A program made the position numbers and the translations under genes. A model generated the notes under the pieces. That model was not told the DNA's origin. It did not search any database and saw only the letters and a list, made by a program, of their open reading frames with translations. Below, piece by piece: positions 2,559-24,431 of a stretch of 35,728 nt of DNA (position 1 is its first letter; each line of letters opens with the position of its first letter). Origin of the DNA: Thermoanaerobaculum sp. (GTDB lineage: Bacteria > Acidobacteriota > Thermoanaerobaculia > Multivoradales > UBA5704); assembly GCA_021154885.1 (NCBI GenBank), contig JAJKHS010000058.1, positions 1 through 35,728 on the forward strand. Direction: 5' to 3'.

Positions 2559-3560
2559 CTAGAACTTCACCCGCTCGATCTCATCGGGCTCCACCAGCTC
2601 GCGCCGCCGGTCGTAGAGCTGGGTGGTGCGGGTCGAGGCGTGGCCGGCGATCGAGGCGGCGCGCTCCAGGGTGCCGCCGTTGAGCAGGTAGTTGGTGATG
2701 CCGGTGGCCCGGCAGGAGTGGCAGCCGACGTCGGTGCCCAGGCCGGCCGTCTCGGCGCGCTGCTTCACTGCACGTAGCGCCGAGCGCGAGGAGAGGGCCT
2801 TTCCTGTGAGCTGACCCGTCCGGCCGGCGAAGGACTGGAAGAGCGGCGCCTCCGGCGCCGCGCCGAGGCCGGAGGCCTCCAGGTAGGCGTCCAGGGCCTC
2901 GGCCGCCCGGCTGTGGACGGGCACACGCCGGTGCTGGCCGCCCTTCTCGCGCAGGGCCAGGTAGGCGCGGCGGCGCTGGTGCTCATAGTCGCGGACCTTG
3001 AGGCCAACGACGGCGCTCACCCGAGAAAAGCTGTAGAGCATCACCGAGAGGAGAGCCCGATCGCGCAGGTCGACCAGGGCGTGGCCGGCGATGGAGTCGA
3101 GGAGCTGCCGAGGCTCGTCCTCTTGGAGGACGGGGGTCTTGCCCGTGCGGATGACGAGCCGCGGGCCGCGCACGGCGTCGGCCGGGTTGTGGGGCAGCAC
3201 CTGGCCGACGACCAGGTAGTCGAAGAGCATGCGTAGCGCGGCAAGGTGTTGCTTGACCGAGGCGGCGGCGAGCTTCGCCGCGAGCTCCTCGACGTAGGAG
3301 GCGACGAGGAAGGGCTCGAGCTGCTCAAGTGCGAGTCCTCGCACCTCACACCAGGCGAGGAACCGCCCCACGGCCCGGGCGTACGCGCCCCGGGTGTGGG
3401 AGTTGCGGATCTCGGAGGTGAAGAACTCGACAAATCTCCTTCGAGCCCGCTCGCCGGCGCGGTCGATGACGGCGGGGAGGTGGAGGACGGTGCCGGCGAT
3501 TCCTGGAGAGTCGCCGGACCTCCGGACGAGAGCCGTGGCCGCAGCGGGATCAGGTTCCAT
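2559..3560 (-). CDS. Tyrosine recombinase (site-specific integrase)
   Basis: A 333-residue XerC/D-like phage-type integrase that would cut and join DNA at the element's attachment sites. The N-terminal SAM-like core-binding domain spans about residues 36-125 (RRFVEFFTSEIRNSHTRGAY, then VKQHLAALRMLFDYLV). The catalytic domain follows, with every active-site residue visible: R180 in SFSRVSAVVGLK, K206 in LREKGGQH, H281 and R284 in CHSCRATGITNYL, H307 in SIAGHAS and the nucleophile Y316 in TTQLYDRR. Full family length, so probably active. The frame is open further upstream; I chose ATG 3560 because the next in-frame ATG (3596) falls inside a 28-bp palindrome that looks like its operator. It is divergent from the peptide island at 3782, and a decayed copy of its N-terminal half occurs at 7467-7650. 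As the leftmost mobile-element gene it probably marks the left end of the integrated element. Confidence 0.93.
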   Translation of the reverse strand: MEPDPAAATALVRRSGDSPGIAGTVLHLPAVIDRAGERARRRFVEFFTSEIRNSHTRGAYARAVGRFLAWCEVRGLALEQLEPFLVASYVEELAAKLAAASVKQHLAALRMLFDYLVVGQVLPHNPADAVRGPRLVIRTGKTPVLQEDEPRQLLDSIAGHALVDLRDRALLSVMLYSFSRVSAVVGLKVRDYEHQRRRAYLALREKGGQHRRVPVHSRAAEALDAYLEASGLGAAPEAPLFQSFAGRTGQLTGKALSSRSALRAVKQRAETAGLGTDVGCHSCRATGITNYLLNGGTLERAASIAGHASTRTTQLYDRRRELVEPDEIERVKF

Positions 3561-3587
3561 GGTGGTGGAGTCTACCGCCTCTCTTTT

Positions 3588-3615
3588 GCGTCGCATAACG
3601 TCTTTTATGCGACGC
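3588..3615. promoter_or_regulatory. Perfect 11-bp inverted repeat upstream of the integrase
   Basis: GCGTCGCATAA (3588-3598) and its exact complement TTATGCGACGC (3605-3615) are separated by six bases. The repeat is centred about 40 bases before the integrase ATG. Its position and symmetry fit an operator for an excision/integration regulator or an integrase auto-regulatory site; an arm-type binding site is also possible. No regulator gene sits beside it. Confidence 0.55.
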
Positions 3616-3691
3616 GAGTGGAGCGGGGCGAAAGGGGGGTAGCGGGGCGCGGCGTGCTCTTTGTCCCGCTTCTGATTGCGCGTGCACCCTT

Positions 3692-3701
3692 TACTATAGT
3701 A
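3692..3701 (+). promoter_or_regulatory. Possible -10 / palindrome upstream of the peptide island
   Basis: TACTATAGTA is a 10-bp palindrome containing a TATAGT -10-like box (3695-3700), about 80 bases before the peptide ATG. No convincing -35 is present at the normal distance, so an activator or another sigma factor may be needed. It resembles, but differs from, the TACATATGTA operator used elsewhere in the element. Confidence 0.35.
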
Positions 3702-3781
3702 GGACCTGCGCGACCGGTGAAGTGCAGATGCATGGAGCACCGCAGTCGCTCAGGAGAGTAAACGAGAGGAGGTGAAAACGA

Positions 3782-3907
3782 ATGAGAAGACTCATGATTA
3801 GGGAAGTTGAGACGGTGAAGACGACCGCGGCTTCTTATTGCTGTGGTTGTCCTGGTATGCCGCCTTGTATCCCGTGGGACCCCGACGCTTGCCCGGTGGG
3901 CCACTAG
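3782..3907 (+). CDS. Cysteine-rich 41-residue peptide, candidate RiPP precursor
   Basis: A short gene preceded by one of the best ribosome-binding sites in the window (AGGAGGTG, seven bases before the ATG). It encodes a basic, leader-like N-terminus (MRRLMIREVETVKTTAA) and then a distinct tail, SYCCGCPGMPPCIPW followed by DPDACPVGH. The tail has five cysteines (20, 21, 23, 29, 37), four or more prolines, a tryptophan and no lysine. No family is recognised. A hairpin and then a PqqD-M50 protease gene follow, on the same strand and close by. Leader, compositionally different core, peptide-binding/protease partner and strong translation together are the usual signs of a precursor peptide matured after translation. 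The five cysteines could be disulphides, thioether or metal ligands; no modifying enzyme (radical SAM, LanM, YcaO) is visible here. Too short for ordinary gene finders and easily missed. Confidence 0.7.
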   Translation: MRRLMIREVETVKTTAASYCCGCPGMPPCIPWDPDACPVGH

Positions 3908-3916
3908 CAGCCGATT

Positions 3917-3950
3917 GGCGTGCCGCCGCCGCTCCATGCGGCGGTACGCC
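3917..3950 (+). terminator. Hairpin between the peptide gene and the protease gene
   Basis: Arms of 13 bases (GGCGTGCCGCCGC and GCGGCGGTACGCC, one G-A mismatch) enclose an eight-base loop. It starts ten bases after the peptide stop and has no T-run. Such stem-loops commonly follow small precursor genes, where they act as partial terminators or RNA stabilisers so that far more precursor than processing enzyme is made. Here that role is inferred from position only. Confidence 0.6.
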
Positions 3951-3993
3951 GCTCGTTGCGTTCACTAAGGAGACCTCTTGCGAGAGAAGGGTT

Positions 3994-5235
3994 ATGACAT
4001 CGATTCCATCGTTCGCAGAAGATAGCTATGTCGAGGTCGTTCCCTTCAGCCGTCAGGACGAGGGCGAGGAGGTGGTCGTCGGGCGGACCGATGTCGGCAC
4101 CTTCCTTGCCCTGCCGCGGGAAGCCGTCGAGGTCCTTGACGATTTGGCCGCGGGGTGCACCGTAGGAGAAGCCCGTGACCTCTACCACCAGCGCCACGGC
4201 GAGATCCCGGACCTGAAGGATTTCCTCGGGACGATGCAGGAAAAGGGTTTTGTGGCCGTAGCTGGGAACCTTGTCGCTGCCACCCCAACCGCTGCCGCTC
4301 CTCGCAAGTACCACTTCGAGAACCTGCCCGAATGGATCCCCCGCCTCTTCTTCGGCAGGCCCGCTCTCTGCATTTATGGGCTGTGGATCGCCCTCGGCAC
4401 CTGGATCGCCATGCGGCGGCCGGACCTCGTTCCCGGGCGCGGTGCGCTCTATTTCCAGCATTTCCACACCCTGAAGATCCTGGCGGTGGTCGGTCTGAGC
4501 TGCGTCACCCTGTTCGTCCATGAGATGTCCCACCTATTGGCGGCCCGCGCCGCTGGGGTCAAGTCACGCCTGGGAATCGGGCACCGTCTGTGGATCCTGG
4601 TCGCAGAGACCGACATGACCGACATCTGGACGGTGCCGAGGAGCAAGCGGTTCCTGCCGATCCTGGCCGGTCCGCTCACCGATCTGGTGACTACCTCGCT
4701 CCTACTGTGCGCTCTCGATGCTGCGGACTACGGATGGATCCACCTTCCGCCGCTCGCCCGGGAGATGACCCGGGCGGTGCTCTTCTCCTACGTGCTCCAG
4801 ATCTCCTGGCAGTTCTTCTTCTTCGTCCGTACGGACTTCTACTTCGCCGTCGCGACTTTCTTCAACTGCAAGAACCTGCTGGCAGACACCGAGCAATTCC
4901 TGAAGAACCAACTGGCGCGGGTGCTCTCGTCGGTGCGGCCGGTAGACCAGAGCCATATCCCTGCGGCGGAGCGCCGGGTGATCCGGGCCTACTCGGCGGT
5001 CTGGCTGTTGGGGCGGGCGGGCGCCCTCTTCCTGCTGTTCACGGTGACTCTCCCCTTGACGGTTGCCTACCTCGAAAAGGTCGGCGGCACTCTGCGTCAC
5101 GGCTTCGGCGCGGACGGCCTCGCCTATCTCGACGCCTTGATGATGACGGTCCTCTCCATGTCTCTCTTCGGAGTGGGGATGGGACTCTGGATAAGGAGCT
5201 TGATCCGGCAATGGAAACCGCGAGCCTTAGCGTAG
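3994..5235 (+). CDS. Membrane M50-family metalloprotease with N-terminal PqqD-like domain
   Basis: A 413-residue protein of the 'putative peptide zinc metalloprotease' type. Residues about 15-90 look like a PqqD/RRE-type peptide-binding fold (VVVGRTDVGTFLALPREAVEVL, then LHQRHG-like and FLGTMQEKGF segments). From about 122 several hydrophobic segments follow. The zinc site HEMSH is at residues 176-180 inside a membrane helix, LAGPLTD is at about 224-230, and VRTDFYF near 278-284 supplies a likely third ligand, D281. This pattern is that of site-2-protease-like enzymes in peptide-maturation clusters; the probable role is cutting or exporting the neighbouring cysteine-rich peptide at the inner membrane. 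ATG 3994 was chosen because it has AAGGG just upstream and because the longer open frame would run through the hairpin. The 3' end overlaps the next gene by 25 bases, implying coupled translation. Confidence 0.85.
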   Translation: MTSIPSFAEDSYVEVVPFSRQDEGEEVVVGRTDVGTFLALPREAVEVLDDLAAGCTVGEARDLYHQRHGEIPDLKDFLGTMQEKGFVAVAGNLVAATPTAAAPRKYHFENLPEWIPRLFFGRPALCIYGLWIALGTWIAMRRPDLVPGRGALYFQHFHTLKILAVVGLSCVTLFVHEMSHLLAARAAGVKSRLGIGHRLWILVAETDMTDIWTVPRSKRFLPILAGPLTDLVTTSLLLCALDAADYGWIHLPPLAREMTRAVLFSYVLQISWQFFFFVRTDFYFAVATFFNCKNLLADTEQFLKNQLARVLSSVRPVDQSHIPAAERRVIRAYSAVWLLGRAGALFLLFTVTLPLTVAYLEKVGGTLRHGFGADGLAYLDALMMTVLSMSLFGVGMGLWIRSLIRQWKPRALA

Positions 5236-7214
5236 CCTCGTCACCCCAGACGCCCTTCTGGACATCCCTCTGGATGAAGGACCTCCGGGGGGCCGGAGCG
5301 GTCCGCGTCCTCGAAGCCGCGGCGGGGGCGAGCCGCAGGCGCCGGCTGGAGGAGGCCGCAGTGGCAGCACGGCAGGAGGGCGCCCGCGTCTTCCTGCTCG
5401 ACGTCGGCTTCGCGGACGGTGGTCCGTGGGCGGGGCTACGCGACCTCTTCAGCGAGCTCCTGCCCGAGCTCCGGGCGCTCCGTCCCGACCTCCTGGCCCT
5501 GCATGGGGCGGAGCTGGGCTATGTCCTGCCCACCCTCAAGAGCGAGCTCGACCGCCCGCAGACCCTGACCGACCTCGCGCCGCCGGAGGAGAAGGTGCGC
5601 AACTATCCGGCGGACCGGGCTTATCGGGTAGTGCACGGCTTGGTCGACCTGCTCGCCGACCTCAAGGGGAGCCTTGAAGCCGAACGGAGCTGGTCTATCG
5701 TCGGCGACAATTTCGACGACGTCAGCCACATCGGACGGCGATTCTTCCAAGAGCTCATGCGCCGCAAGGGGGAGGAGATGCGGACGAGTCTCTTGTTGGC
5801 TGTGGCCCCTGGAACGGCGGTTGAAGCGTCTTGGTTCCCCAACGGGCTGGAGAAGACCCCCCTCGACCTTCCAAGCGACGAGGAGAAGGTGGACCGCGAG
5901 ACCCTGCGTGCCCGCGCCCTCGAGCTCGAGGCCCTGGTGGATCAGAACGTCGACTTGATCGAAGTCCACATCGCTAAGATCCTCCGCTGTTTTCGCCTCG
6001 CTGGCGAGCCACAAAAGGTCTTCCGGTGGCAGTGCCGGGCTCTGGAGGTCTACAACTCGCTCGGTTTCTATGAAGACGCTCTGGAATATGGGCGCGAAGC
6101 CTGGCGGCTCTGCGGCGAGTACCGTGTCGAGCGCCAGGACCTGCGGTGGGCCCTTTTCGTGAAGCTCTTCATGTCGATCGTGGGGTTGCAACGCGGCGCC
6201 GAGGCCGAGCAGCTCGTCGAGACCAGCGGCATCCTGGAAGAGCCCATGTCCTTGGAGCGAAGGGCGCAGCTCCTCTACCTGGTCTCGATGCTCTACACCC
6301 GCTATCTGCCGGAGCGTGACCTGGTGAAGGGAGAGGACTATCTCGAGCGGGCCCTTGCCGATCTCGAGCAAGCCCGTCCCGAAATGCCGGAAGCGGAGTA
6401 TCACTTTTATCGGGTGTTCAATCGCAACGGCCTTGCCCTCGTGCGCCATCTCCAGGGGCGCTACCAGGAGGCGATCGACCTCTGCCGGGAGGGGTTCGAG
6501 CGGCTTGAGTGTCACCTCCAAGGAGAGAAGCACAAACTCCATCGCTCCGTGCTCCTCTACAACATCGCCCAGGTCTACGGGGTCATCGGCTCGCTGGCGG
6601 ACTCGGTCGCCTACTATTCGGCCGCCATCGAGATGGACCCGGCCTATTCCGAGTATTACAACGACCGCGGCTCTCTCTATCTCAAAATGGGCAGGCTGGC
6701 CGAGGCGAGGGCCGACTACCTGCGGGCCATCGAGCTGAGCCCCCCGTACCCGGAGGTCTGGACGAATCTGGGGCAGTGCCACCGGCTGGCGGAGGAGTGG
6801 GATGAGGCGCTGCGCGCCTACTCCGTTGCGATCGATCTGCAGCCGCAGAGCCCGGTCGCCCTGTTCGGTCGCGGACAGGTGCTGGAGGCCCTCGGCCGCG
6901 AGGCGGAGGCGCTGACGGACTACGACCGGGCGCTCGAGTTGCGGCCGGACCGCTGGGACACCCTGGGCTGCCGCGCGGTGCTCCTCTACCAGAAGGGCGA
7001 GTCGGAGCGCTCGCTCGCCGACCTCGACCGCGCGGTCGAGCTCGCGCCCGACAAGATCGACTTGCGCTTCAACCGATCCGTGGTGTTGGCCGATCTCGAC
7101 CGGGCCGGCGATGCGCTCGCGGACCTGGACACCTGCTTGCGATTGGCCACGACGGCGGAGGAGCGCGCCGACTTCGAGAGCCGCGTCACCGAGTTGCGGG
7201 CTTCGGTGGCGTAG
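5211..7214 (+). CDS. TPR-repeat protein with degenerate STAND/AAA-like N-terminus
   Basis: A 667-residue soluble protein. It starts at ATG 5211 (AAGGAG 13 bases upstream), inside the end of the M50 gene. The first ~200 residues resemble the ATPase domain of LuxR/AfsR-type STAND proteins: LEEAAVAARQEGARVFLLDV, PWAGLRDLFSELLPEL, and a Walker-B-like SWSIVGDNFDDVSH. At the P-loop position, however, the sequence reads AAAGASRRRRLEEAA, without GKS/T, so nucleotide binding is doubtful. The middle (about 210-440) is helical. The last ~225 residues form about six canonical TPRs (for example AIEMDPAYSEYYNDRGSLYL and ALELRPDRWDTLGCRAVLL), a protein- or peptide-binding surface. Its place at the end of the peptide-protease operon suggests a scaffold, immunity or peptide-sensing role. 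I know of no characterised equivalent. Confidence 0.85.
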   Translation: METASLSVASSPQTPFWTSLWMKDLRGAGAVRVLEAAAGASRRRRLEEAAVAARQEGARVFLLDVGFADGGPWAGLRDLFSELLPELRALRPDLLALHGAELGYVLPTLKSELDRPQTLTDLAPPEEKVRNYPADRAYRVVHGLVDLLADLKGSLEAERSWSIVGDNFDDVSHIGRRFFQELMRRKGEEMRTSLLLAVAPGTAVEASWFPNGLEKTPLDLPSDEEKVDRETLRARALELEALVDQNVDLIEVHIAKILRCFRLAGEPQKVFRWQCRALEVYNSLGFYEDALEYGREAWRLCGEYRVERQDLRWALFVKLFMSIVGLQRGAEAEQLVETSGILEEPMSLERRAQLLYLVSMLYTRYLPERDLVKGEDYLERALADLEQARPEMPEAEYHFYRVFNRNGLALVRHLQGRYQEAIDLCREGFERLECHLQGEKHKLHRSVLLYNIAQVYGVIGSLADSVAYYSAAIEMDPAYSEYYNDRGSLYLKMGRLAEARADYLRAIELSPPYPEVWTNLGQCHRLAEEWDEALRAYSVAIDLQPQSPVALFGRGQVLEALGREAEALTDYDRALELRPDRWDTLGCRAVLLYQKGESERSLADLDRAVELAPDKIDLRFNRSVVLADLDRAGDALADLDTCLRLATTAEERADFESRVTELRASVA

Positions 7215-7231
7215 GCAACCGCCGGGGTCCC

Positions 7232-7254
7232 GGCCGGCCTGCGCTCAGCCGGCC
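7232..7254 (+). terminator. Weak GC hairpin after the TPR gene
   Basis: GGCCGGC (7232-7238) pairs with GCCGGCC (7248-7254) across a nine-base loop, 18 bases after the TPR gene stop. There is no T-run, so it could at best be a weak or factor-assisted terminator. Confidence 0.3.
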
Positions 7255-7358
7255 ATGGAGGGGCGGATGTCGCGGCCAGTGCGTGGTCCGCGATGCGCTC
7301 CATGTTGCGCGAGATGAGAAGGAGGTGGAGCGCCGGAGCGCCGGCTCAGCAAGTGGCT

Positions 7359-7410
7359 GGATCTACCAGGCCTCCCGGCCGCAGTGGCCGCCACATCCGG
7401 GCGGTGCTGG
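7359..7410. repeat. Direct repeat, copy 1 (second copy 7972-8022)
   Basis: A ~52-bp sequence beginning GGATCTACCA and ending GGGCGGTGCTGG recurs at 7972-8022 with a few substitutions and one single-base indel. On the minus strand both copies contain a frame ending in HCGREAW and a stop, which may be the relic of a duplicated gene's 3' end. Confidence 0.65.
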
Positions 7411-7466
7411 ACGAGAGAGGGGGCGTGAGGGGCGGGGGCCGCGAGGACATCGCGATGGAGTCGAGG

Positions 7467-7650
7467 AGGAAGGGCAGCTCGCCGAGCGCGAGGCCTCGCG
7501 CCTCATACCATGCGAGGAACCGCCCCACGGCCTGGGCGTACGCGGCCCGGGTGCGGGGGTTGCGGATCTCGGCGGTGAAGAACTCGACAAAACGGCGGTG
7601 GGCTCGCTCGCCGGCGCGGTCGATGACGGCGGGGAGGTGGAGGACGGGGC
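7467..7650 (-). pseudogene. Decayed integrase fragment, second copy of the N-terminal half
   Basis: This stretch encodes VLHLPAVIDRAGERAHRRFV and goes on through EIRNPRTRAAYAQAVGRFLAW and EARGLAL, matching residues about 25-85 of the intact integrase at 2559-3560 in order and strand. I estimate close to 87% identity in DNA. Similarity stops abruptly at both ends: there is no catalytic domain, and the frame runs into unrelated sequence. It is therefore a truncated remnant. The two copies lie in direct orientation on either side of the peptide-protease-TPR island, which suggests that duplication or successive insertion of related elements brought the island in. Confidence 0.8.
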
Positions 7651-7961
7651 AGGTCCGGCGAGCAGGACTGGGCCGCCTGGCCTCTGGGCGAGAGCGACGG
7701 CCGAGAACGAACGGCGTTCGCTTCCAGGAAGGAGCCGAACGCCTCCTTAGGCTCCCCATCTTCTGTTGCGGATTAAGCTGGGCAAAGCCCGACGGCGACT
7801 CCGGCCTATTCGTTTCCGGAAATGTATCGCCTTGAGCCGACCCGGCTCACGACTTTAGAGGAGGAGAGGAGGAAGAGCGACGAGTTCGGGAGAAGCTCGC
7901 GGAATGTGCCATCGGCTTCTGGGACGGGGCGGCAGCGCCGGCCGCGCACCTTCGCCGACGC

Positions 7962-8168
7962 TCAAAGGGTTGGATCTACCACGCCTCCCGGCCGCAGTGC
8001 CGGCACATCCGGGCGGTGTTGGGCGACGGGGGACGGCTTGAGCCGGGCCGGCGGCGAGGATGTCGCCCCGGGCGATGTCCTGGCGCCGAGCTGGGCCGCG
8101 GCGCCGCTTGTCGCTTGGGTGCGGCCCACCGCGATCCGCGGCTCCTGAAGCAATTGCTTGTAGAGCAT
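7962..8168 (-). CDS. Possible 68-residue small protein, unknown
   Basis: It is supported mainly by a strong ribosome site (GGGAGG, seven bases before ATG 8168). The product begins MLYKQLLQEPRIAVGRTQ and becomes proline/alanine/serine-rich; no family is recognised. Near its 3' end it runs through the 52-bp repeat, where a neighbouring frame would instead end CRHCGREAW, so the gene may be frameshifted and non-functional. It sits in a remnant-rich region beside the decayed integrase. Could be a real small gene, a decayed one, or chance. Confidence 0.3.
   Translation of the reverse strand: MLYKQLLQEPRIAVGRTQATSGAAAQLGARTSPGATSSPPARLKPSPVAQHRPDVPALRPGGVVDPTL
7972..8022. repeat. Direct repeat, copy 2 (first copy 7359-7410)
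   Basis: Second copy of the ~52-bp unit, same orientation, 613 bp away. On the minus strand it encodes TARMCRHCGREAW followed by a stop in one frame. Confidence 0.65.
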
Positions 8169-8262
8169 GTTGTTTCCTCCCTTGAAAGCGAGCGCCGTTC
8201 GCCTTGGGCGGAAGCGGCGCAGACCCCGCACTCCCGCGGCGCGCGCAGCCATCTCGCAGACT

Positions 8263-8280
8263 GGCGAACGAGCGTTCGCC
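8263..8280. repeat. Dispersed palindrome GGCGAACG-NN-CGTTCGCC (intergenic copy)
   Basis: Same arms with a two-base spacer, in the remnant region. Less perfect relatives lie near 7705 and 8190. Confidence 0.6.
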
Positions 8281-8328
8281 CTGCGGCGCCGAAGACCGGG
8301 TCGACCTGGCCGGCGCCCACCAAGTCCT

Positions 8329-8514
8329 CTAGACTTGCAGCGCGGTGGGTAGCCGCTGGCGGCGTCGTGACGGAGGGCAAGGGCTTGGGGCGGACGGCCG
8401 CAGGCTCAGGCTGACATGTGCGGCGTAGAGGATGCGGCGCGCCCACTTCCAGGAAGTGGCCGTACTCAAGCCTAGCGCGGTCGCGGCGCGGTTGATCGAG
8501 CGGTTGGCGCGCAC
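8329..8514 (-). pseudogene. Possible transposase or helix-turn-helix remnant
   Basis: A 61-codon frame from GTG encodes NRSINRAATALGLSTATSWK and then WARRIL, which has the shape of the helix-turn-helix segment near the start of some transposases. No catalytic part follows and there is a stop on both sides. Read as a remnant with low confidence. Confidence 0.25.
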
Positions 8515-8615
8515 AGCGTGCGCCCGTCATCCTCCTCCTCTACTCTATCGAGGGAGCTTGCGACTGGTCCGACGCACCCTTTTCCTGGCATCGCGTATCG
8601 GCTTCCGAACGTCTA

Positions 8616-8849
8616 TTGCCTTCCTCGACCGACCCCGGCGAACGGTCGCTGCTACAGATCACCCTCGTCGAGGCCGAAACGGGGCTGATCAAGGTGCTCC
8701 GCGCGCTTAGCCTCGGACCGGCACAAACCGCCTCTCTTTACGAGGCGATTCGCCGCCAGGCGACACTGCCGACCGAGCCCGCAGAGTTTGACCGTATTCA
8801 GAGGACTTGGCAGCCCCGTGATCTCGCCCTGCAGGGCGAACAAGGGTGA
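8616..8849 (+). CDS. Small hypothetical protein, 77 residues
   Basis: The likely start is TTG 8616 or slightly different; no clear ribosome site is seen. The product contains a helical, protein-like stretch (LLQITLVEAETGLIKVLRAL, then LYEAIRRQATLP and FDRIQRTWQPRDL) with consistent codon use. No family is recognised. Its stop overlaps GTG 8846, which opens the frame of the next gene, so the two are probably cotranscribed and perhaps translationally coupled. Confidence 0.5.
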   Translation: MPSSTDPGERSLLQITLVEAETGLIKVLRALSLGPAQTASLYEAIRRQATLPTEPAEFDRIQRTWQPRDLALQGEQG

Positions 8850-8902
8850 GCCATTCATCCGACCCGCACTCACCCTTGTCCGCACGGACCCTAGCTGCTG
8901 CG

Positions 8903-9124
8903 ATGCCCTTATCGATCGACCTCACCGGCTGTCGCTTCGGTCGCCTTCTCGTCCTTAAGCGAGCGGGCACTGTGCACTATGGACGCGACATGCCTGCCTG
9001 GCACTGTCGCTGCGATTGCGGTGAGGAGGTCCTGGTGCCGCAGGAGCGTCTTGCTCATCGCCCCGACATCCGTCCACCCCGCGCGTTGGACTCATGCTCG
9101 GCCTGCCGCGCCCGCACGAGGTAA
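8903..9124 (+). CDS. Small zinc-ribbon protein (phage/AP2-HNH-associated type)
   Basis: From ATG 8903 the 73-residue product opens PLSIDLTGCRFGRLLVLKRA, followed by WHCRCDCGEEVLVPQERL and a closing SCSACRAR. The DLTGxRFGRLxVL plus CxCxCG plus late CxxC pattern is the one often found N-terminal to phage HNH/AP2 DNA-binding proteins; here it stands alone and would bind one zinc ion. A role in DNA binding is likely by family resemblance, the target unknown. The frame can also start at GTG 8846, which overlaps the previous stop and adds 19 residues without family similarity. Confidence 0.65.
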   Translation: MPLSIDLTGCRFGRLLVLKRAGTVHYGRDMPAWHCRCDCGEEVLVPQERLAHRPDIRPPRALDSCSACRARTR

Positions 9125-9423
9125 GGTGGACTTAGTCGAATAGGCTTCTCCTTGTCGCAAGCGCTGGAACGGCCAGCGCTAGAGTGGGGTCGCCGACGCA
9201 GTTCTGGGCAAGGGAATCAATCCTCGCTGCTCGGGCAGGCGCGCCGGTCCTTGGTTCGCAACTCGTTTCTCGTCGGGAGTGAAGCCCGTGGCGAAACCCC
9301 TCGTCTATGGTCCGGGTAAGGTGAGAATCGCCGGCCGCGCGTTCTCGCCGAAACCGCGCTGCGCACCGACAGCCCGGAAGCGCTCGTCACTCACGAGCGT
9401 GACTGATGTCCAAAAAGCGGGAG
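9125..9423. other. Intergenic, nothing recognised
   Basis: No gene with codon or motif support. An open plus-strand frame starting at 9279 overlaps the better-supported zinc-ribbon gene on the other strand and is discounted. Confidence 0.45.
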
Positions 9424-9612
9424 TCAAGAATCCGGTGGAGCGAAGCGGACTCTTAACCACTCGGGAAGCCGAATGACCCAAGCGCGGCAATTCGGGTTCG
9501 GGCATCGCCAGGGAAGGAAATAGAAGCGCCACAGACGGCCGTATCCGACCACCCAGCAGGAGGGGCACCGCCAGGGTTTTTCGGAGTCGGCGATAGAAAC
9601 CACGGCTAGCAC
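9424..9612 (-). CDS. Small zinc-ribbon protein, 62 residues
   Basis: GTG 9612 overlaps the stop of the upstream gene by seven bases, a layout typical of coupled translation. The product has two cysteine pairs, WRCPSCWVVGYGRLWRFYF and then WRCPNPNCRAWVIRLPEWL, forming a single zinc ribbon, and is rich in tryptophan and arginine. It has no recognised family; such mini-ribbons in mobile elements are often nucleic-acid or protein binders. Its last codons resemble a tRNA D-arm by chance (see rejected items). Confidence 0.55.
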   Translation of the reverse strand: MLAVVSIADSEKPWRCPSCWVVGYGRLWRFYFLPWRCPNPNCRAWVIRLPEWLRVRFAPPDS

Positions 9613-12752: not shown

Positions 12753-15419
12753 TCAATCTTCGAGGGAGGGGGCAGGGTGACGGCGGGAGCGGGCAAGAGT
12801 GGCCAGCGCGGTGATCGCGAGCAGGACGGCGAGACCGACCAAGGAAAAAGAGCCGAGGGTGGGGATGTCTTGGATGGAGGAGGCGATCACCTCGACCGTG
12901 GCCTCCGCGTGGTCATCCTCGGTGGGGACGTCGTTGCCGGGGGTGGAATCGACGTCGTCGGGGGAGGCCGCGGAGAGGTCCGCGACGACGGTATAGGAGC
13001 CGGCGGCGAGGGCCCCTTGCGTCCAGGAGAAAGCGACGTCGGAATGGGGAGCGAGCGTGTCGAGGGAGCACTCAAGCCCATTGCCGGCGATCGGCCGGCA
13101 TCGGGGGTCGAGCGAGGAGGGAGACGTGCCGAAGGGGGGCAGAGTGATGGTGGCGGTAAGGCGAGTGGCCGCGACATCAGAGGCGTTGGACATGGTGAGG
13201 GTGAAGGTGAAGGGATCGGGAGAGGCAAGAGACTTGACCGCGGGGTCGGCCTTGAGAGTGAGGGAGATGTCCGTCAGTTGAGCCGGAGGCTTGCTGACGA
13301 TCGTCGAGCAGTTGTTGCCTTGGGGATCGGCGTCACCGGGTGACTGGCGGGCACAAGCCGTGTTGGAGACCTGGAGCCCGGGGGGAAGCGAGTTGGCGAG
13401 CGAGACGGCGAATGTCTTGGTGATCAGGGCATTGGCGGCGACGGTGCCGAGCGGGAGCGAGCAGTGGGATCCGGGTGAGCCGTCAGGGGTGCAGCTCCAG
13501 CCGGCAGAGCTGGCCGCGGCGTCGAAGGTGGAGGAGGCCGGGACGACCTCGTCGAGCGCCACCGCGGTGGCAGCGCGGTTGCCGGAGTTGGTGAGGGAGA
13601 GGGTGTAGGTGAGCAAGGCACCCGGGGCGAGAGTACCGGAGGTGAGCGTCTTGGTGAGCGCGAGGTCGGGGTTGCCGGTTGGGGGGGTGGAGATCGTGGA
13701 GCAGTTGTTGGCAGCGGGGTCCGAGGGAAACTCGTCGTTGGCGCAGGCAGTGTTGTCAAGGGAGGTGACGCCTGGCGGCAGCGGGGTGACGACGCGGACG
13801 GCGAAGAGGCGATTGACGGTAGAGCCCGCGGGAAGGGAGCCGATGGGCAGGGTGCAGGCGGAGCCGGCGGCGGGAGAGGAGCAGGTCCAGCCGGGCGAGC
13901 TGGCGGTGGGCTCCCAGGAGGTGGCAGCGGGGACGGTCTCGGTCAAGACGGCGTTGGCGGCGCCTCGATTTCCGAGGTTCGACAGAGCGAGGTTGTAGAC
14001 GAGGACACCCCCCGGAGCGCCGGTGCCGGACATCAGGGTCTTGGCGAGAGAAACGTCGGGGGTCCCGCCAGGCGGCGTCGAGACGGACCCGCAGTTGTTG
14101 GCGTTGGGATCGGAAGGGGGAAGACCGGTCAAACAGGCGGTGTTGGCGATCGGCGCTGGATTCGGGGGAAGGGGATTGGCAACCGTCACGGCAAAGGCAT
14201 AGACGGCCGTGGCGTTGCCGGAGAGAGGTGGGGCAGAGAGGGTGCAATTCGAGCCGGCACAGGCCCAGCCGGGAGACGAGGACGCGGCAGCGAACGCGGT
14301 ATTAGGGGGGAGGGTCTCGGCGATCGAGAAGGCGAGACTCGCGCGAGCTCCGAGGTTCGAGACCTGAAGCCGGTAGACCAGGGTGGAGCCGGGATCGCCG
14401 TTGCCGCTCTGGACGGATTTGGCAAGAGAGAGATCGGGGTTCGAGCCGCCCGCCGGCGTCGACACCGACCCGCAGTTGTTGGAGGCGTCCTCCCCGGGGG
14501 TCGTCGTTGCGCTGCAGGCGGTATTGACAATCGGTGCGGGGCTGTTGGGAAAACTGGAAGCGACGAGGACGGCAAAGGTGGTGGTGTCGGTGGCGAGAGC
14601 GGGAAGGGTGCCGAGGGATCGGGTGCAGGTGGATCCTGCCGAGCCGTCGGGCGAGCAACTCCAGCCGGGCGAGGAGCCGGCGGGGTTGAAGGACGTGAGG
14701 TTGGGCACGGTCTCGGTGAGGGTGACGCCGGCGGCGTCGGTGTTGCTGTTGTTGAGGGTGGAGATAGTGTAGAGGAGAGTGGCCCCCGGGGAGCCATCGC
14801 CGGAGGTGAGGGTCTTGGTGGTGCGAAGGTCGGGCGGAGGGGGACAGGGTTGCGGAGCGGGAAAGTCCGAGGCCGTCGCGGTGAGGTCCTTGACGGTGGG
14901 CGAATCCTGGTGCGCCCCGCCGTCGACGAGGATGGGGCCGGCGGTGGTGCTGAGATAACGGCCCGCCAGGTGCAGGGTGATGGCATAGGAGTGGTTGGCA
15001 GGGTTGCCCGTAGCACTGGGATCGCAGGTGTAGGCGACGACGGCTTGGCCGTCGGCGGGATTGAGCCCGGAAAGGATGGTGGTGGAACAGACCGGGTTGG
15101 TGAACACCGGGTCGACCACGACGTTGGGAGCCTTATACGACCAGCGCACGGGTGTGTTGATCGGAATGGTGATGGTTCCCGAGTCGGGGCCCGTGGAGTT
15201 GTCCTCGGAGAGGACGGCGACGAGGTGAACGAGCTCGGCACAGTCGATCACGCCATTGCCGTTGGCGTCGTCGAAGGATTCGTAATGGAGGGTAAAAGTG
15301 AGAACGGCGCGTGAGGGCGAAACGAGGAGGACTGCGAGGAGGAGAAAGGCGAACGCCGTTCGCCTTAGCCGGGACGCTGCTACATATGTAGAACCTACAG
15401 ATGTAAAAATGCTAGACAT
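12753..15419 (-). CDS. DUF11-repeat surface protein with IPTL-CTERM sorting tail
   Basis: An 888-residue secreted protein. It starts at ATG 15419 (AAGGAG nine bases upstream), with a signal peptide (RLRRTAFAFLLLAVLLV, cut near PSRA). The N-terminal ~180 residues form a unique domain (YESFDDANGNGVIDCAELVH resembles a dockerin-like or EF-hand loop). About five DUF11 beta-sandwich units follow, each opening with a DLxLxKTLxSG motif and carrying SSPGWxC and CGSVSTP or CSTISTP, a disulphide-rich stalk architecture. The C-terminus IPTLGSFSLVGLAVLLAITA followed by RSRR is an IPTL-CTERM signal, normally recognised by an exosortase (XrtH type) that anchors the protein outside. It lies 46 bases after parB in the transfer-element operon, so the element probably displays it on its host: an adhesin for mating pairs or an exclusion factor are options. 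A TACATATGTA palindrome lies inside codons 10-13. Confidence 0.88.
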   Translation of the reverse strand: MSSIFTSVGSTYVAASRLRRTAFAFLLLAVLLVSPSRAVLTFTLHYESFDDANGNGVIDCAELVHLVAVLSEDNSTGPDSGTITIPINTPVRWSYKAPNVVVDPVFTNPVCSTTILSGLNPADGQAVVAYTCDPSATGNPANHSYAITLHLAGRYLSTTAGPILVDGGAHQDSPTVKDLTATASDFPAPQPCPPPPDLRTTKTLTSGDGSPGATLLYTISTLNNSNTDAAGVTLTETVPNLTSFNPAGSSPGWSCSPDGSAGSTCTRSLGTLPALATDTTTFAVLVASSFPNSPAPIVNTACSATTTPGEDASNNCGSVSTPAGGSNPDLSLAKSVQSGNGDPGSTLVYRLQVSNLGARASLAFSIAETLPPNTAFAAASSSPGWACAGSNCTLSAPPLSGNATAVYAFAVTVANPLPPNPAPIANTACLTGLPPSDPNANNCGSVSTPPGGTPDVSLAKTLMSGTGAPGGVLVYNLALSNLGNRGAANAVLTETVPAATSWEPTASSPGWTCSSPAAGSACTLPIGSLPAGSTVNRLFAVRVVTPLPPGVTSLDNTACANDEFPSDPAANNCSTISTPPTGNPDLALTKTLTSGTLAPGALLTYTLSLTNSGNRAATAVALDEVVPASSTFDAAASSAGWSCTPDGSPGSHCSLPLGTVAANALITKTFAVSLANSLPPGLQVSNTACARQSPGDADPQGNNCSTIVSKPPAQLTDISLTLKADPAVKSLASPDPFTFTLTMSNASDVAATRLTATITLPPFGTSPSSLDPRCRPIAGNGLECSLDTLAPHSDVAFSWTQGALAAGSYTVVADLSAASPDDVDSTPGNDVPTEDDHAEATVEVIASSIQDIPTLGSFSLVGLAVLLAITALATLARSRRHPAPSLED
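15348..15364. repeat. Dispersed palindrome GGCGAACG-N-CGTTCGCC (DUF11 gene copy)
   Basis: Exact 17-base copy inside the signal-peptide codons of the DUF11 gene, where it is read RRTAFA. Its flanks extend the symmetry by two more bases on each side. Confidence 0.8.
15381..15405. promoter_or_regulatory. Two TACATATGTA-like palindromes inside the DUF11 gene start
   Basis: TACATATGTA (15381-15390) and TACAGATGTA (15396-15405, one mismatch) lie side by side within codons 5-13 of the DUF11 gene. If the operator regulator binds here it would act as a roadblock to transcription coming from parB, or control an internal promoter. Confidence 0.6.
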
Positions 15420-15465
15420 GCTGAAGATCTCCTTAAGTTCGAAGGGTTCGGTGAGGAGCCGTGTT

Positions 15466-16353
15466 TTAGGCCTGGCGCTCGGGAGCGAGACGCGCAAGCA
15501 GATCGGTGACAGCTTGGACGAGAGAGGCGTCGTCGAGCTCGCCGGCGGCCTCTTCGTGGTGGAGGAGGAGGGCCTCAAGGTGCCGGCGGGGCAGAATCAG
15601 GGTAAGAACGGGCGAGGGGCCGGGCGTGGGAGCCGGGGGAGGGATAGCGGCAGGATGAGTCCTCGCCTGGGTAGCACGCTGGCGGAGTCGCTCGGCGGTC
15701 TGACGGGACACGGGTAGCTGAGCGGCCGCGGCACGAGCCAAGAGCGGCTCCCGCTCCTCCTTGGGCACGGAGCGAAGCGCGAGCGCGGTCTCGAGGTCGG
15801 GAACCAGCCCAGCCTTGGCAGCGGCGAGGATGTCAGCGGGGAGCTTCTTGACCGCAAAATACTTGGACATTACCGCATCGGTAAGCCCGAACTTTTGGGC
15901 CACTTCGCGTTGGCTGAGGCCGGCCTCGGCAGCGATGCGCTGAAAGGCGTCTGCTTTCTCAAGAAACGTGAGGTCGACCCGGAAAAGGTTCTCGGTGAGA
16001 GCGAGGACTTGGCGGTCGACCGGGCTGAGATCAGGGGAGATGATGGCCGGGATTTCGGACAAGCCGGCCTCACGCGCGGCGCGCAGGCGGCGCTCGCCTG
16101 CGATGAGCGTCCATCGCTCGCCAGAGGGTTGGACGTGGATGGGGACGGCAACGGTACGGGTGGCCCTGATGTTGGAGACGAGCTCCTGGAACTGGGGATC
16201 GGCGAGGGCCGCGGCGAGGTCTTGGGCGAACGTCTGGCGGGGCTGATCCGGATCGGGATCGATGTCGGCGATGGGGAGCAGCCGAAAGGGGGATTGGGGG
16301 TCATGGAAACCCCCGAGAGAGGCGGCGAGCTGCTGCATGCTAGAGGTCGCCAT
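15466..16353 (-). CDS. parB: ParB-family partition protein
   Basis: A 295-residue ParB/Spo0J-like protein that would bind centromere sites and work with the adjacent ParA to segregate or stabilise the element. The N-terminal ParB domain is at about residues 25-125, with LIAGERRLRAAREAGLSEIP (the GERR-like nucleotide-binding motif), then ALTENLFRVDLTFLEKADAF. A helix-turn-helix follows (LSQREVAQKFGLTDAVMSKY) and then an alanine/proline-rich linker and helical C-terminus. ATG 16353 overlaps the parA end by 14 bases; ATG 16338 is an alternative. Its binding site is not known, but palindromes at 28434-28538 or the dispersed GGCGAACG-N-CGTTCGCC are candidates. Confidence 0.9.
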   Translation of the reverse strand: MATSSMQQLAASLGGFHDPQSPFRLLPIADIDPDPDQPRQTFAQDLAAALADPQFQELVSNIRATRTVAVPIHVQPSGERWTLIAGERRLRAAREAGLSEIPAIISPDLSPVDRQVLALTENLFRVDLTFLEKADAFQRIAAEAGLSQREVAQKFGLTDAVMSKYFAVKKLPADILAAAKAGLVPDLETALALRSVPKEEREPLLARAAAAQLPVSRQTAERLRQRATQARTHPAAIPPPAPTPGPSPVLTLILPRRHLEALLLHHEEAAGELDDASLVQAVTDLLARLAPERQA

Positions 16354-17131
16354 AGACCGCCTCACAGAAAGCAAGCCACTCAGCCCGGACGGGGCGGGGG
16401 CTCCTGCCATAGGCCCAAACGGGTTTACGGCGGCCGATCGCTTCGGCGACGGGCACGCGCTCGGAAAGGAGTGGCCGGAGAAGGAGGGAGGGCGAATCGG
16501 CTGCGAGTTGTTCTTCGAGCTGCTGGACGATGAGGTTCTGGTACTTTGAACGGATTTTGAAGCGGTTGATCGCCGCCCTGTAAACGAGACCGGAATTCTC
16601 GCGCTTAGCGAGACGGATGCTTTTCAAGAGAGCGGCAAGTCCCGAGACAGAGAACTCATCAGCCTCCATCGGGACGACAACGAGGTCGGCCCAGAAGAGA
16701 GGGGCGAGCTGTCGACTGCTGACGCTGGGAGCGGTGTCGACGAAGATGACATCGAAGGGTAGGGACCGGACGACGGCGGCAGTGGCGCGGATGTTGGGGA
16801 GGGCGAGACTTTGCTCGACGGCGTCGAGATGTTGATGGCCGTGAAGCAGTTGAAGGCGGGGGGTAATCGCCGTCATGGCGGCGAGTGGGGAGGGGGAAGG
16901 GGTGGGGGAGGAGGGGTCAGGAAAAAGGCTGGCGGAGCCTCCTTGCTGGTTGAGGAGGGCAAAGTCACCGGTCAAAGCCAACGTCAGGTTGCCTTGGGGG
17001 TCCAGGTCGATGGCGAGAACGGTGCGCTCCTCGCGCAACGCATAGTGGATGAGGTGGTAGGCGATGGTCGTCTTACCGACGCCGCCTTTCTGATTGAGCA
17101 TGGCGATGACCTTAGTTTGAGTTGAGGTCAT
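16340..17131 (-). CDS. parA: ParA-family partition ATPase
   Basis: A 263-residue Walker-type ATPase. KVIAMLNQKGGVGKTTIAYH at residues 7-26 holds the deviant Walker A (KGGVGKTT). LAIDLDPQGNLTLAL is motif A', and FDVIFVDTAPSVSSRQL is Walker B. Its length fits the small ParA (type Ib-like) group without an N-terminal DNA-binding domain. It would drive ATP-dependent positioning of the element DNA with ParB. Its ATG overlaps the trbI stop as ATGA, so partition is expressed as the tail of the type IV secretion operon, which ties element stability to transfer expression. Confidence 0.93.
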   Translation of the reverse strand: MTSTQTKVIAMLNQKGGVGKTTIAYHLIHYALREERTVLAIDLDPQGNLTLALTGDFALLNQQGGSASLFPDPSSPTPSPSPLAAMTAITPRLQLLHGHQHLDAVEQSLALPNIRATAAVVRSLPFDVIFVDTAPSVSSRQLAPLFWADLVVVPMEADEFSVSGLAALLKSIRLAKRENSGLVYRAAINRFKIRSKYQNLIVQQLEEQLAADSPSLLLRPLLSERVPVAEAIGRRKPVWAYGRSPRPVRAEWLAFCEAVYGDL

Positions 17132-18405
17132 CGACGGCTCCTTGCAAGGGTCATAGCCGGAAAGAGGATATCCGAAGTGACTTGGAGGGTAAAGGTCGTG
17201 CCGGCCGGAGCCGAGATGGTGGGAGGGACCTTGAGGGCACGATCGACGAGGCCGGTCGAGACGTCGCCGAGCTGCTGGCCCAGGGAGCCGGCGGCGACCT
17301 CGCGGGGGGTGGTGGGCCTGAGCCCGAGTGACTGGGTGGGGGAGTTCTGGGGTTGGCTGAGCTGAACCCCGGCGGAGATGAGGGAGAGAAGAACGGCGGA
17401 GCTGAAGAGCTTGACGGTGTGGTTGTTGACCTGGCCGGTGAGGCCGGTGGCGCCGGCGCGGTCGGCTCCGGGAAGGTCGGGCAGACGGTAATGGCGCCCG
17501 CCGGGAAGAAGAAGGTCGGTCCAGAGGACCTCGAGGCGGCTCTGTCCGAACTGGGGCGTGGCGGAGATCTCGCCGACGAGGCGGGAGGCCTGGGGTATGA
17601 GAACGGTGGTGGCGGTGGCGGTGTCGTAGACGTCACGGCGGACGAGAGCGGTGACTTGTCCTCGGAGATCGCTGTTGATGCTGGTCTCGAGGATCGCGGG
17701 GATGATGGCACCCTTGCGCAGGACGCGGACGTCGCCGGAGTCGGAAACGAGGCTCAGGGTGGCGGCGATACGGGGAGAGGTCGAGCGTCGGGGGCGATCA
17801 AGGGCAGGAGGGGTCTCAGTGCCGGGGGGCCGCGACAGCGCGAGGCTCTCAGCCAGGGCCGAGAAATCGAGAGGAGGGGAGGGGGAGGTGGTTGGGCGTT
17901 GCCGCTCTTCGCCCGCGGCGCCCGCGGCAACGGGTTCTGCGGCTTGATCCTTGTCCTTGAGGCCAGGCGGCGACAGAGAGGAGCGCAGGGATTGCACAAG
18001 GGAGTCGGCGGCAACCGGGGCTGAGGGGCGGGCAGGAGCCTCCAGGTCGCGGAAGCGCTGCAGGTCCTCGGGGGAGGGTGGGGTAAGGGAGCTGTCGTCG
18101 AGCTCAGGCCGAGGGGGTGGTACGTAGGCCGTGGGCGGGGGTGGAGGCAGGGCTTGGCTGCGGCTTTGGTTGAGGAAGGCATCGAGTTGTTGCCTCTGGG
18201 TGTCTTCGGCCTCCTGGGGCACAGGCGGCTTGGCCGCCGGGAGCGCTTGGGGCTTGGGAGTGAAATAGGCGGTTGCAAGCAGCAGGAGGCCGAGAGCGAG
18301 GAGGGCGGCCAAGCCGGCATTGCGGCTGACTCGTCGCACCGGGGGCATGGTCGGGGCCTCGACCGGGCGCGGAGAGGGTCTGGTGGCAGGAGTCTCAGGT
18401 TCCAT
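17128..18405 (-). CDS. trbI: TrbI/VirB10-like type IV secretion protein
   Basis: A 425-residue bitopic inner-membrane protein bridging to the outer membrane. It starts at ATG 18405, giving a short cytoplasmic N-terminus, one membrane helix (NAGLAALLALGLLLLATAYF) and a long proline-rich periplasmic linker (PPVPQEAEDTQRQQL, PPPPPTAYVPPP). The conserved VirB10 beta-barrel domain runs from about 240: VLRKGAIIPAILETSINSDL, LIPQASRLVGEIS and LEVLWTDLLLPGGRHYRLPD. The open frame continues upstream, but that part overlaps trbG and is not coding. Starts 11 bases after the trbG stop and ends in an ATGA overlap with parA. Confidence 0.9.
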   Translation of the reverse strand: MEPETPATRPSPRPVEAPTMPPVRRVSRNAGLAALLALGLLLLATAYFTPKPQALPAAKPPVPQEAEDTQRQQLDAFLNQSRSQALPPPPPTAYVPPPRPELDDSSLTPPSPEDLQRFRDLEAPARPSAPVAADSLVQSLRSSLSPPGLKDKDQAAEPVAAGAAGEERQRPTTSPSPPLDFSALAESLALSRPPGTETPPALDRPRRSTSPRIAATLSLVSDSGDVRVLRKGAIIPAILETSINSDLRGQVTALVRRDVYDTATATTVLIPQASRLVGEISATPQFGQSRLEVLWTDLLLPGGRHYRLPDLPGADRAGATGLTGQVNNHTVKLFSSAVLLSLISAGVQLSQPQNSPTQSLGLRPTTPREVAAGSLGQQLGDVSTGLVDRALKVPPTISAPAGTTFTLQVTSDILFPAMTLARSRR

Positions 18406-18416
18406 GGCGGTCTCTC

Positions 18417-19367
18417 TTAGTGGGCGCCGCGGTAGATGTCGATGGCGGCGTCTTTGCGGCCGTCGCGGATGAGGAGGCGAAGGTGAGGGTAGGTGCCGTC
18501 GACGAGGTAGTAAAGGCCGTCGTCGGTGGCGCGGTAGTTGAGCAACTCGGCCTGGCCTTGAGGCGAGATGGCAAGAAGGGTCGGGGCCTCGGAAGGCCTG
18601 CCGGGGCGGAACTGGATATAGGTGCGCTTGGCGTCGTCGAGGACGCGCAGGGGCATCCAGGAGAGGCGGGGGTCGCCGGCCAGGCGGTAGTCGAGGTGAA
18701 GGCTGGCCAGGGGGATGGTGGCGACCGAGCGCCGCGCCTCTAGGAGACGGTCGGTTGCGGCGCGCTCTTCGTCGAGGAGCTGGTCGGCGGGATAGCTGAA
18801 GGCGAGGCGGGTGTAGTGGAAGGCGTCCTTCTCGGTCGTCGCTTTGGGGGGGGCGACGAGGCTGACGTTGTAGGTGCGGCGGTTGGTGCCGATGAGGAGA
18901 TTGGTGCCGATACCCCACTCCGTGGGTTTGACCACCAGGTGAATGGCATCCGGGTCGCCGGCGCTGAAGCGCTCGAACAGCCAGCGCTCGCTGTCGCCTA
19001 CCGCGTAGCCCTTGACGATCTCTCCTGGCTGGAGCTCGATGTCGCAGGCTCGAAGCGGGGCGCAGTTGAGGATCGGTTGTGTCGAGCCGAAGGGGACCCG
19101 CAAGACACTCGCGTCGTAGAAGACGCGCGGCGCGGGGGCGGAGCTGGGAACAGGCCGGGATGGGGGGGGCGGGGCCGGCGCGGGCTCGGCGAGGCCCGCA
19201 GGGGCCGGGGAGTCCGCGGCCGGGGTCGGGTCGACGACGGGCGGCGTGCGGTCCGCCTGGGCCTTGAGCTCGTCGAGGAGCAGGGAGGGGTTCGGGGTGG
19301 GCTGCGGCCAAGCGCGCAGAGGCAGAAAGACGAGGGCAATCAGAAGGCGAAGAACGGTTCGTCTCAT
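18417..19367 (-). CDS. trbG: TrbG/VirB9-like type IV secretion protein
   Basis: A 316-residue periplasmic/outer-membrane-complex subunit. ATG 19367 with AAGGAG five bases upstream gives a signal peptide (MRRTVLRLLIALVFLPLRAW). A proline-rich segment follows, then the VirB9 beta-sandwich domains: LRACDIELQPGEIVKGYAVG, WLFERFSAGDPDAIHLVVKP and TNLLIGTNRRTYNVSLVA. The C-terminal domain (LDYRLAGDPRLSWMPLRVLD, then TYIQFRPGRP) contacts the VirB7/VirB10 outer ring. Follows trbF by 22 bases in the trb operon. Confidence 0.9.
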   Translation of the reverse strand: MRRTVLRLLIALVFLPLRAWPQPTPNPSLLLDELKAQADRTPPVVDPTPAADSPAPAGLAEPAPAPPPPSRPVPSSAPAPRVFYDASVLRVPFGSTQPILNCAPLRACDIELQPGEIVKGYAVGDSERWLFERFSAGDPDAIHLVVKPTEWGIGTNLLIGTNRRTYNVSLVAPPKATTEKDAFHYTRLAFSYPADQLLDEERAATDRLLEARRSVATIPLASLHLDYRLAGDPRLSWMPLRVLDDAKRTYIQFRPGRPSEAPTLLAISPQGQAELLNYRATDDGLYYLVDGTYPHLRLLIRDGRKDAAIDIYRGAH

Positions 19368-19389
19368 AGCGTCTCCTTGGGGTAAAGGA

Positions 19390-20037: not shown

Positions 20038-20041
20038 GGGT

Positions 20042-24101: not shown

Positions 24102-24116
24102 CGGAGGTCCTAGCGA

Positions 24117-24431
24117 TTAGGTGGGCCAGGGTCGGGGAAGAAGGGGGCGCGAGCCGAGCGCGGCCCGGGCGGGGTAGAAAGGCTGGTACTTGAGCTGGGC
24201 GAAAAAGACCCGGGAAAGCTGAGGGTCGTAAGCCGCGGCCTTGCGCAGCACGGGGTGAACCACAAGGACGATCAGAGCAGCGAGCGTGAGAGTGGCAAGA
24301 CGGGGTCCTCCCACGGAAACCAGCCAGAGGACGAGAGAGAGCTCACCGGAGACGAGATAACGCTCGGCTCCGCCCATAAGGAGGGGCCGAGCGAGGGAGC
24401 TGTGAAGCGGTGCGGCGTCGTCCCGGGCCAT
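24117..24431 (-). CDS. trbD: TrbD/VirB3-like inner-membrane protein
   Basis: A 104-residue small membrane protein with the VirB3 pattern: a short N-terminus with PLHSSLARPLLMGGAERYL, two adjacent hydrophobic segments (LVSGELSLVLWLVSV; LATLTLAALIVLVVHPVLR), then a cytoplasmic tail containing FFAQLKYQPFYPARAAL. It associates with TrbE at the inner membrane. It is directly adjacent to the trbC stop with no gap. Confidence 0.88.
   Translation of the reverse strand: MARDDAAPLHSSLARPLLMGGAERYLVSGELSLVLWLVSVGGPRLATLTLAALIVLVVHPVLRKAAAYDPQLSRVFFAQLKYQPFYPARAALGSRPLLPRPWPT

Follow-up and report, generated by a model that had tools for sequence, protein, structure and literature searches.

Proteases of the M50 family that act on leader peptides are already known among the ribosomally synthesized and post-translationally modified peptides (RiPPs), as are fusions of a RiPP recognition element (RRE) to a site-2 protease (S2P), described for the daptides (PMC10036551). 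According to that report, the discovery of daptides began from RREs fused N-terminally to an intramembrane S2P, with short precursors adjoining. In the epipeptides the M50 protease EpeP/YydH/LiaK (NF058609) carries out the maturation of a short peptide, whose export it is believed to assist, and in the pearlins the membrane M50 enzymes TglG and TmoG act on a scaffold peptide and cut the modified amino acid off its C-terminus (PMC10885120). TMcin, as described in PMC13252029, has its leader removed by an S2P-clan protease that needs a dedicated escort. Here we describe a three-gene locus in a 35,728-nucleotide stretch of DNA from Thermoanaerobaculum sp. of the Acidobacteriota (contig JAJKHS010000058.1), the whole of which we call the window. 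The locus encodes a short peptide, an M50 protease with a predicted N-terminal RRE, and a tetratricopeptide repeat (TPR) protein. We read it, with a probability of roughly 0.6, as a compact RiPP-like module in which an RRE would guide an S2P that matures the peptide, with the TPR protein as its dedicated escort. Its features are:

3767–3775, plus strand: strong Shine-Dalgarno sequence AGGAGGTGA of the precursor gene, identified from the sequence
3782–3907, plus strand: precursor peptide gene, 41 aa, called from its open reading frame (ORF), a held-out leader profile and homologous frames 5' of the relatives' M50 genes
3782–3832, plus strand: leader MRRLMIREVETVKTTAA, which aligns with the relatives' MKKfxIRexETlKTTaA
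3833–3904, plus strand: core, 24 aa, beginning SYCC and holding the Tyr-Cys pair of clade A (defined below); its border with the leader is placed where conservation ends
3916–3951, plus strand: hairpin with a 14-bp stem (3916–3929/3938–3951), from folding against shuffled sequences
3994–5235, plus strand: RRE-S2P (M50) fusion gene, 413 aa, from Pfam, a conserved zinc motif and an AlphaFold2 (AF2) model
4024–4269, plus strand: RRE/PqqD-like predicted leader-binding domain, residues 11–92, from the AF2 model compared with the TbiB1–leader complex
4519–4533, plus strand: HExxH zinc site, HEMSH, residues 176–180, with H176, E177 and H180 invariant in 26 rows
4828–4842, plus strand: distal motif RTDFY, residues 279–283, with T280, D281 and Y283 invariant in 26 rows
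5211–7214, plus strand: TPR partner gene, 667 aa, from its ORF, Pfam and a structure model; it overlaps the M50 gene by 25 nt
5298–5900, plus strand: degenerate AAA_16/STAND-like N-terminal domain of the TPR protein, residues ~30–230, without a Walker A motif, from AAA_16 matches in relatives and a motif scan

The locus differs from each of these described systems. Unlike the daptides of PMC10036551, the window peptide has neither the ELExMEAP motif nor a C-terminal Thr, ending in His, and the operon is without decarboxylase, aminotransferase, methyltransferase or MpaB-like genes. A search for MpaB/C/D/M-like genes found only the M50 and TPR genes between the integrase stretches that flank the module, and none in ten other window proteins scanned. 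The daptide protease model NF041824 matched five of the 30 members of our M50 alignment (A3; best E 1.2e-9), and the window protein gave no match to it. No radical SAM epimerase, as in the epipeptides, lies between the integrase stretches; NF058609 matched three of the 30 rows weakly, and two of these scanned singly reached 18.8 and 18.9 bits, below the cut-off of 225. Pearlins need PEARL ligases, whereas the module operon has no gene for one. The RRE of lasso-peptide B1 proteins (TbiB1, 5v1v, solved with its leader) is the best fold match of the M50 N-terminal domain, but the operon has no B2 protease or lasso (C) cyclase. Membership in the daptides, epipeptides or lasso peptides was rejected, as their defining genes or motifs are absent from the operon. 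TMcin, as far as its description in PMC13252029 extends, differs in that its precursor has a transmembrane helix, its protease belongs to the DUF3267 family, its escort is a membrane protein, and it has DsbA-like and ABC partners. In general terms the locus has two of the traits that characterize a RiPP system, namely a precursor with a conserved leader and a variable core beside a processing enzyme, and a leader-binding RRE at the level of predicted fold alone.

Species genomes were scanned with a three-row alignment, yielding 32 loci, which were sorted by gene order, leader style and likeness before a tree was drawn, so that groups and tree do not agree in full independence of each other. 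For four groups, three architecture-label changes suffice on the tree (33 M50 proteins), which is the minimum possible, and leader style differs between the groups. Clade A, with the order precursor-M50-TPR, has 13 tree rows including the window (support 94/90); clade B is an actinobacterial precursor-M50-TPR group of six rows (99/97); clade C comprises three rows (L060, L061 and L094) with a short core of the SCSVVVA kind (100/97); and clade D, ThiF-M50, has 11 rows and falls in two places as drawn. The small gene set that the sequence-only reading had singled out as unusual recurs in the same order in all 14 clade-A relatives, which span Cyanobacteriota, Myxococcota, Acidobacteriota and one metagenome-assembled genome (MAG) named Bacillota. 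It is therefore not an accident of the window. The TPR gene lies directly 3' of the M50 gene in 14/14 clade-A loci and 6/6 clade-B tree rows, and also beside the M50 fragment L078. A further locus found by profile in the phylum of L047 (L092, genome G591) has two precursors followed by M50 and TPR genes in the window's order.

Evidence that the short frame is a genuine precursor comes from its leader and from its codons. In a search of 13,561 six-frame fragments, a profile of 11 other leaders, with the window excluded, recovered the window peptide at E 8.2e-7; two frames that resemble precursors, from clades B and D, followed at E 0.73 and 1.4, and chance matches began at E 3.5. All 15 of the best loci (L047–L061; the L055 copy is cut by a contig end) have a frame 5' of the M50 gene bearing the consensus M/L-K-K-x-x-I/V-R-x-x-E-T/S-L/V-K/R-T-T/S, and L094 has an upstream leader-bearing frame too. 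The earlier prediction that homologues of the M50 gene would carry a peptide frame upstream was thus borne out in 14/14 clade-A and 3/3 clade-C relatives. Precursor copies occur in tandem in Nostoc genomes, with five ahead of a single M50 gene in L051. Across 18 Nostoc and Aphanothece copies, 17 of the 24 variable codon columns (of 29) varied synonymously only, and the ratio of nonsynonymous to synonymous divergence (dN/dS) was 0.04–0.09 in five of ten precursor pairs, dS being saturated and not computable in three; the L060 and L061 precursors differ solely by two replacements. The Nostoc-group copies show purifying selection, as the sequence-only reading had anticipated. On the held-out leader profile and codon-level selection, a chance ORF was rejected. 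At E up to 1 neither NCBIfam nor Pfam gave a family for the window peptide, at E up to 5 NCBIfam gave none for the peptides of seven relatives, and BLAST matches to parts of the window peptide in the loci compared first were at chance level (E 0.29 or worse).

Core sequences vary strongly between species. The 41-residue window peptide with its strong ribosome site was confirmed as described earlier and has five cysteines, but these are not a family trait, because seven of the 12 clade-A cores listed (11 distinct, the window included; L052 and L054–L056, with their shared Nostoc core, not counted) have a single Cys, and the proposed CCxC...C or Cys-rich signature was abandoned. Every one of the 12 has a Tyr followed by a Cys after 0–4 residues, so that the conserved trait is the leader together with this Tyr-x(0-4)-Cys pair. 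In clade B the cores once more have many cysteines, as in CNNYCYGMCCC of L064 and L066. Single-Cys cores make a general disulfide-only product unlikely, and the Tyr-Cys pair would be the obvious candidate site if the core is chemically modified.

The M50 protein bears the hallmarks of a site-2 protease, namely the HExxH site, a distal Asp (D281, the putative third zinc ligand) and, in the predicted model, a transmembrane S2P fold. Its PF02163 match is just above the cut-off (27.5 bits against 27.2), and its PqqD-like part matched no Pfam family at E up to 1. In the AF2 model, built from 26 rows (predicted local distance difference test (pLDDT) 87; predicted template modelling score (pTM) 0.82), residues 11–92 form an RRE-like small sheet with three helices. 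The best Foldseek matches of the model were TbiB1 with its leader (probability 1.00, TM-score by target 0.71) and a site-2 protease (0.87). VIA-align placed the N-terminal domain on the TbiB1–leader complex (Z 10.6 over 82 residues at 2.7 Å), with a second TbiB1 entry and another lasso B1 at Z 10.3 each, and the body on RseP (Z 10.4) and SpoIVFB (Z 10.0), with the caveat that mostly helical models can reach such values by common arrangement. The S2P half has independent support in the conserved zinc motif and the Pfam match. A profile of the 30 M50 rows also matched TbiB1 by sequence (E 0.054, profile positions 22–87), and PqqD was matched by one of the 30 members (E 0.0049). The earlier identification of a PqqD-like/M50 protease therefore stands, and the predicted fold supports a leader-binding role for its N-terminus; leader recognition and proteolysis appear to be combined in one membrane protein, as in daptides. 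We regard the pairing of precursor and RRE-S2P as highly probable.

The hairpin that had been noted after the peptide gene is likewise real by folding: positions 3905–3984 fold at -39.7 kcal/mol (z -3.6), and none of 200 shuffles was equally stable. The corresponding gap folded with z of -2.6 or lower in nine of 12 relatives (for L051, its first 119 nt only). A role in stoichiometry control is probable.

The overlapping TPR protein was also correctly recognized (TPR_1, E 1.8e-34), but the ATPase-like N-terminus attributed to it proved degenerate. AAA_16 matched the N-domain in two of 11 rows (best E 1.4e-5), the window's own row gave no match to AAA_16 or any other family at E up to 5, and the Walker A pattern GxxxxGK[ST] occurred in none of the 11 rows of one alignment (A8) or the 19 of another (A6). 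A functional ATPase was rejected, as there is no Walker A. Polar residues (E, R, N, D, H) are invariant at many positions of the domain, and a search of PDB sequences with it gave a best E of 0.22. The TPR model (pLDDT 90) shows a solenoid at residues ~235–667 like those of OGT, LGN and Rap; it matches RapI (Z 18.5) and the Rap protein of phage Phi3T (Z 18.1) along with numerous other TPR proteins, but such scores are unspecific, the solenoid shape being common to many proteins. The Foldseek and VIA-align rows for this model cover the solenoid and barely probe the N-domain fold. In genome profile searches, which scored the best four or seven candidates per genome so that absences are not absolute, the N-domain profile (up to seven candidates) matched one of 396 same-phylum genomes, the window's own, once. 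It also matched once in each of six further genomes with the module, beside the M50 gene (7/7 in total). From this co-occurrence, the TPR protein looks like a dedicated part of the module.

We propose that the ribosome would make the short precursor in excess, consistent with its strong ribosome site and the hairpin before the downstream genes. The leader motif IRxxETxKTT would then dock on the RRE at the protease N-terminus, and the site-2-type zinc protease may cut at or near the KTTAA border, so that the core with its Tyr and Cys would be set free at the membrane. By analogy with TmcE, the escort in TMcin, the TPR protein (a pseudo-ATPase joined to a TPR solenoid) could serve in the cytosol as a dedicated partner, holding the precursor or escorting it. 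Escort, as opposed to receptor or maturase, is the part of the proposal to which we give slightly less than even odds.

Several observations weigh against this proposal. No chemistry enzyme or exporter common to the loci was seen. The three clade-C loci show no TPR gene (for L094, the gene 3' of M50 gave no TPR match), so TPR is not indispensable for such proteases, and in clade D a ThiF protein stands in its place. Clear precursors were found in four of seven clade-B loci (L063–L066), L062 and L011 having weak candidates only, and none was recognized at L078, whose M50 match is a fragment outside the tree. Among 18 ThiF-type loci, the regular expression found no precursor in seven. The gaps of L058 (z -0.5), L059 (-1.3) and L064 (-1.4) fold near their shuffles, without a clear hairpin. 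The L057/L059 precursor pair has dN of 0.20 and dS of 0.21 because their cores differ. For the M50 model no Foldseek match reached E 0.001, the best lying at 0.16–0.42 (TbiB1 0.16).

M50 enzymes process pheromones in other systems, and the module could alternatively be a signalling device in which the protease releases a small pheromone and a Rap/RRNPP-like TPR receptor senses density or self. The fold matches to RapI and Phi3T Rap would agree with this, as would the resemblance of the N-domain to STAND regulators and a BTAD-AAA_16 regulator downstream in L048. However, those matches are as unspecific as noted above, and the TPR protein showed neither a DNA-binding nor a phosphatase part and matched no Pfam helix-turn-helix family. 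The cores vary strongly between species, and tandem precursor copies suit production better, so we consider signalling unlikely. Slightly less likely again is a maturase role for the TPR protein, whose N-domain could be a divergent enzyme with the Tyr-Cys pair as its target or could bring in a house-keeping enzyme. The TPR gene is the sole other one common to all clade-A loci, the N-domain is rich in invariant polar residues, and the pair is present in every clade-A core listed, seven of them with one Cys; but the N-domain is related to AAA_16 without Walker A, no known catalytic signature was recognized in it, and clade C shows no TPR gene.

The short frame might alternatively be a regulatory upstream ORF that attenuates translation of the M50 gene, the protease acting on other membrane substrates. 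It does lie just 5' of that gene and is followed by a strong hairpin. A protein product is favoured by tandem arrays of up to five copies, by selection at the amino-acid level, by a leader that several phyla have in common and by the predicted RRE fold of the protease, and we rejected a mere attenuator as very improbable. The RRE-guided, S2P-matured module with a TPR escort remains our preferred reading. Its broader form, a new RiPP class that needs only the RRE-S2P fusion and a pseudo-AAA-TPR protein (as Tyr-Cys maturase or new precursor escort), with RRE-S2P as a portable core for swapped ThiF, AlkZ-like or TPR partners, is more tentative, and we consider it rather more likely to be wrong than right.

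Partner genes differ among the other loci. Directly after the RRE-M50 gene, in the position that TPR occupies in clade A, L060 (Saccharothrix) has an AlkZ-like DNA glycosylase (PF06224, E 5.7e-54; ORF 8313–9569, domain from ~8532), and L061 (Streptomyces) has one too, as read from translation, downstream of 8347. AlkZ-like proteins can be self-resistance genes against DNA-damaging products, and some products of this subgroup might, speculatively, act on DNA. In L012, L067–L074 and other ThiF-type loci, a 19-aa frame, MEIKVKKVESVKATQNPAT or close variants, precedes a pair of E1-like ThiF and RRE-M50 genes; by regular expression, such a frame lies upstream in 11 of the 18. These frames look like another family of peptides not yet described, which might undergo activation at the C-terminus. 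L012, L015 and L016 each have a BTAD regulator nearby. After the TPR gene, L058 (a Bryobacteraceae MAG) has a MacB/FtsX-like permease and a flavin mononucleotide (FMN) reductase (5190–8313), and L062 (Streptomyces) has a flavin reductase directly 3' of it (4675–5265); neither permease nor reductases were common to the other loci looked at.

Clade A was found in one of 396 genomes of the window's phylum and in two of 386 sampled genomes of L047's phylum, including L047's own, with one ThiF-type match there (E up to 1e-20). The M50 profile matched 47 other genomes of the 396 at E up to 0.001, none better than 1.3e-20, and the window M50 protein alone matched eight others. A tblastn search against plasmids gave 25 records, 24 from Actinomycetota and one from Priestia, all below 60% identity. 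The clade is rare and scattered, and horizontal spread fits both this distribution and the conjugative-type context of the window. There the three plus-strand genes are flanked by two minus-strand features:

2559–3740, minus strand: XerC/D-like integrase gene adjoining the module (PF00589, E 3.2e-19)
7454–7786, minus strand: integrase remnant on the module's other side, matching residues 37–149 of the upstream integrase at 55%

A 197-nt direct repeat of integrase sequence (3300–3496 and 7457–7653, 83% identical) brackets the module, which may have been mobilized in one piece or have interrupted an integrase that had been duplicated. A second direct repeat, of 163 nt, lies at the contig start (1–163 and 310–472, 91% identical, 309 nt start to start). 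Genes for ParA, ParB, TrbI, TrbL, TrbE/VirB4- or TraG-type and type IV coupling proteins lie in 15466–27899 (minus strand) and 32907–34925, and by gene content the window resembles a portion of a conjugative plasmid or of an integrative element. Beside the par genes, a 941-aa protein with four DUF11 stretches is encoded on the minus strand (12753–15578). Rfam and tRNA scans of the window gave no matches, and a PADLOC scan gave three weak ones only, each in the TPR region.

Searches of the open-licence PMC literature, where absence is no proof, found no description of the module or its leader strings. Its precursor family was not found in NCBIfam or Pfam, and the literature searched yielded no case of such precursors paired with a pseudo-AAA-TPR protein where a common chemistry gene is lacking. 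The module thus looks undescribed, and should its core turn out to carry a modification, it may be a new class. Because RiPPs are mostly mined by way of a modifying enzyme, modules without one are easily missed. The finding raises the questions of whether an RRE-guided intramembrane protease and a TPR escort alone are enough to mature and release a peptide, and of what becomes of the Tyr-Cys pair. The leader motif, the RRE-protease and the dedicated TPR partner make up a searchable family, whose precursors are small and easily synthesized.

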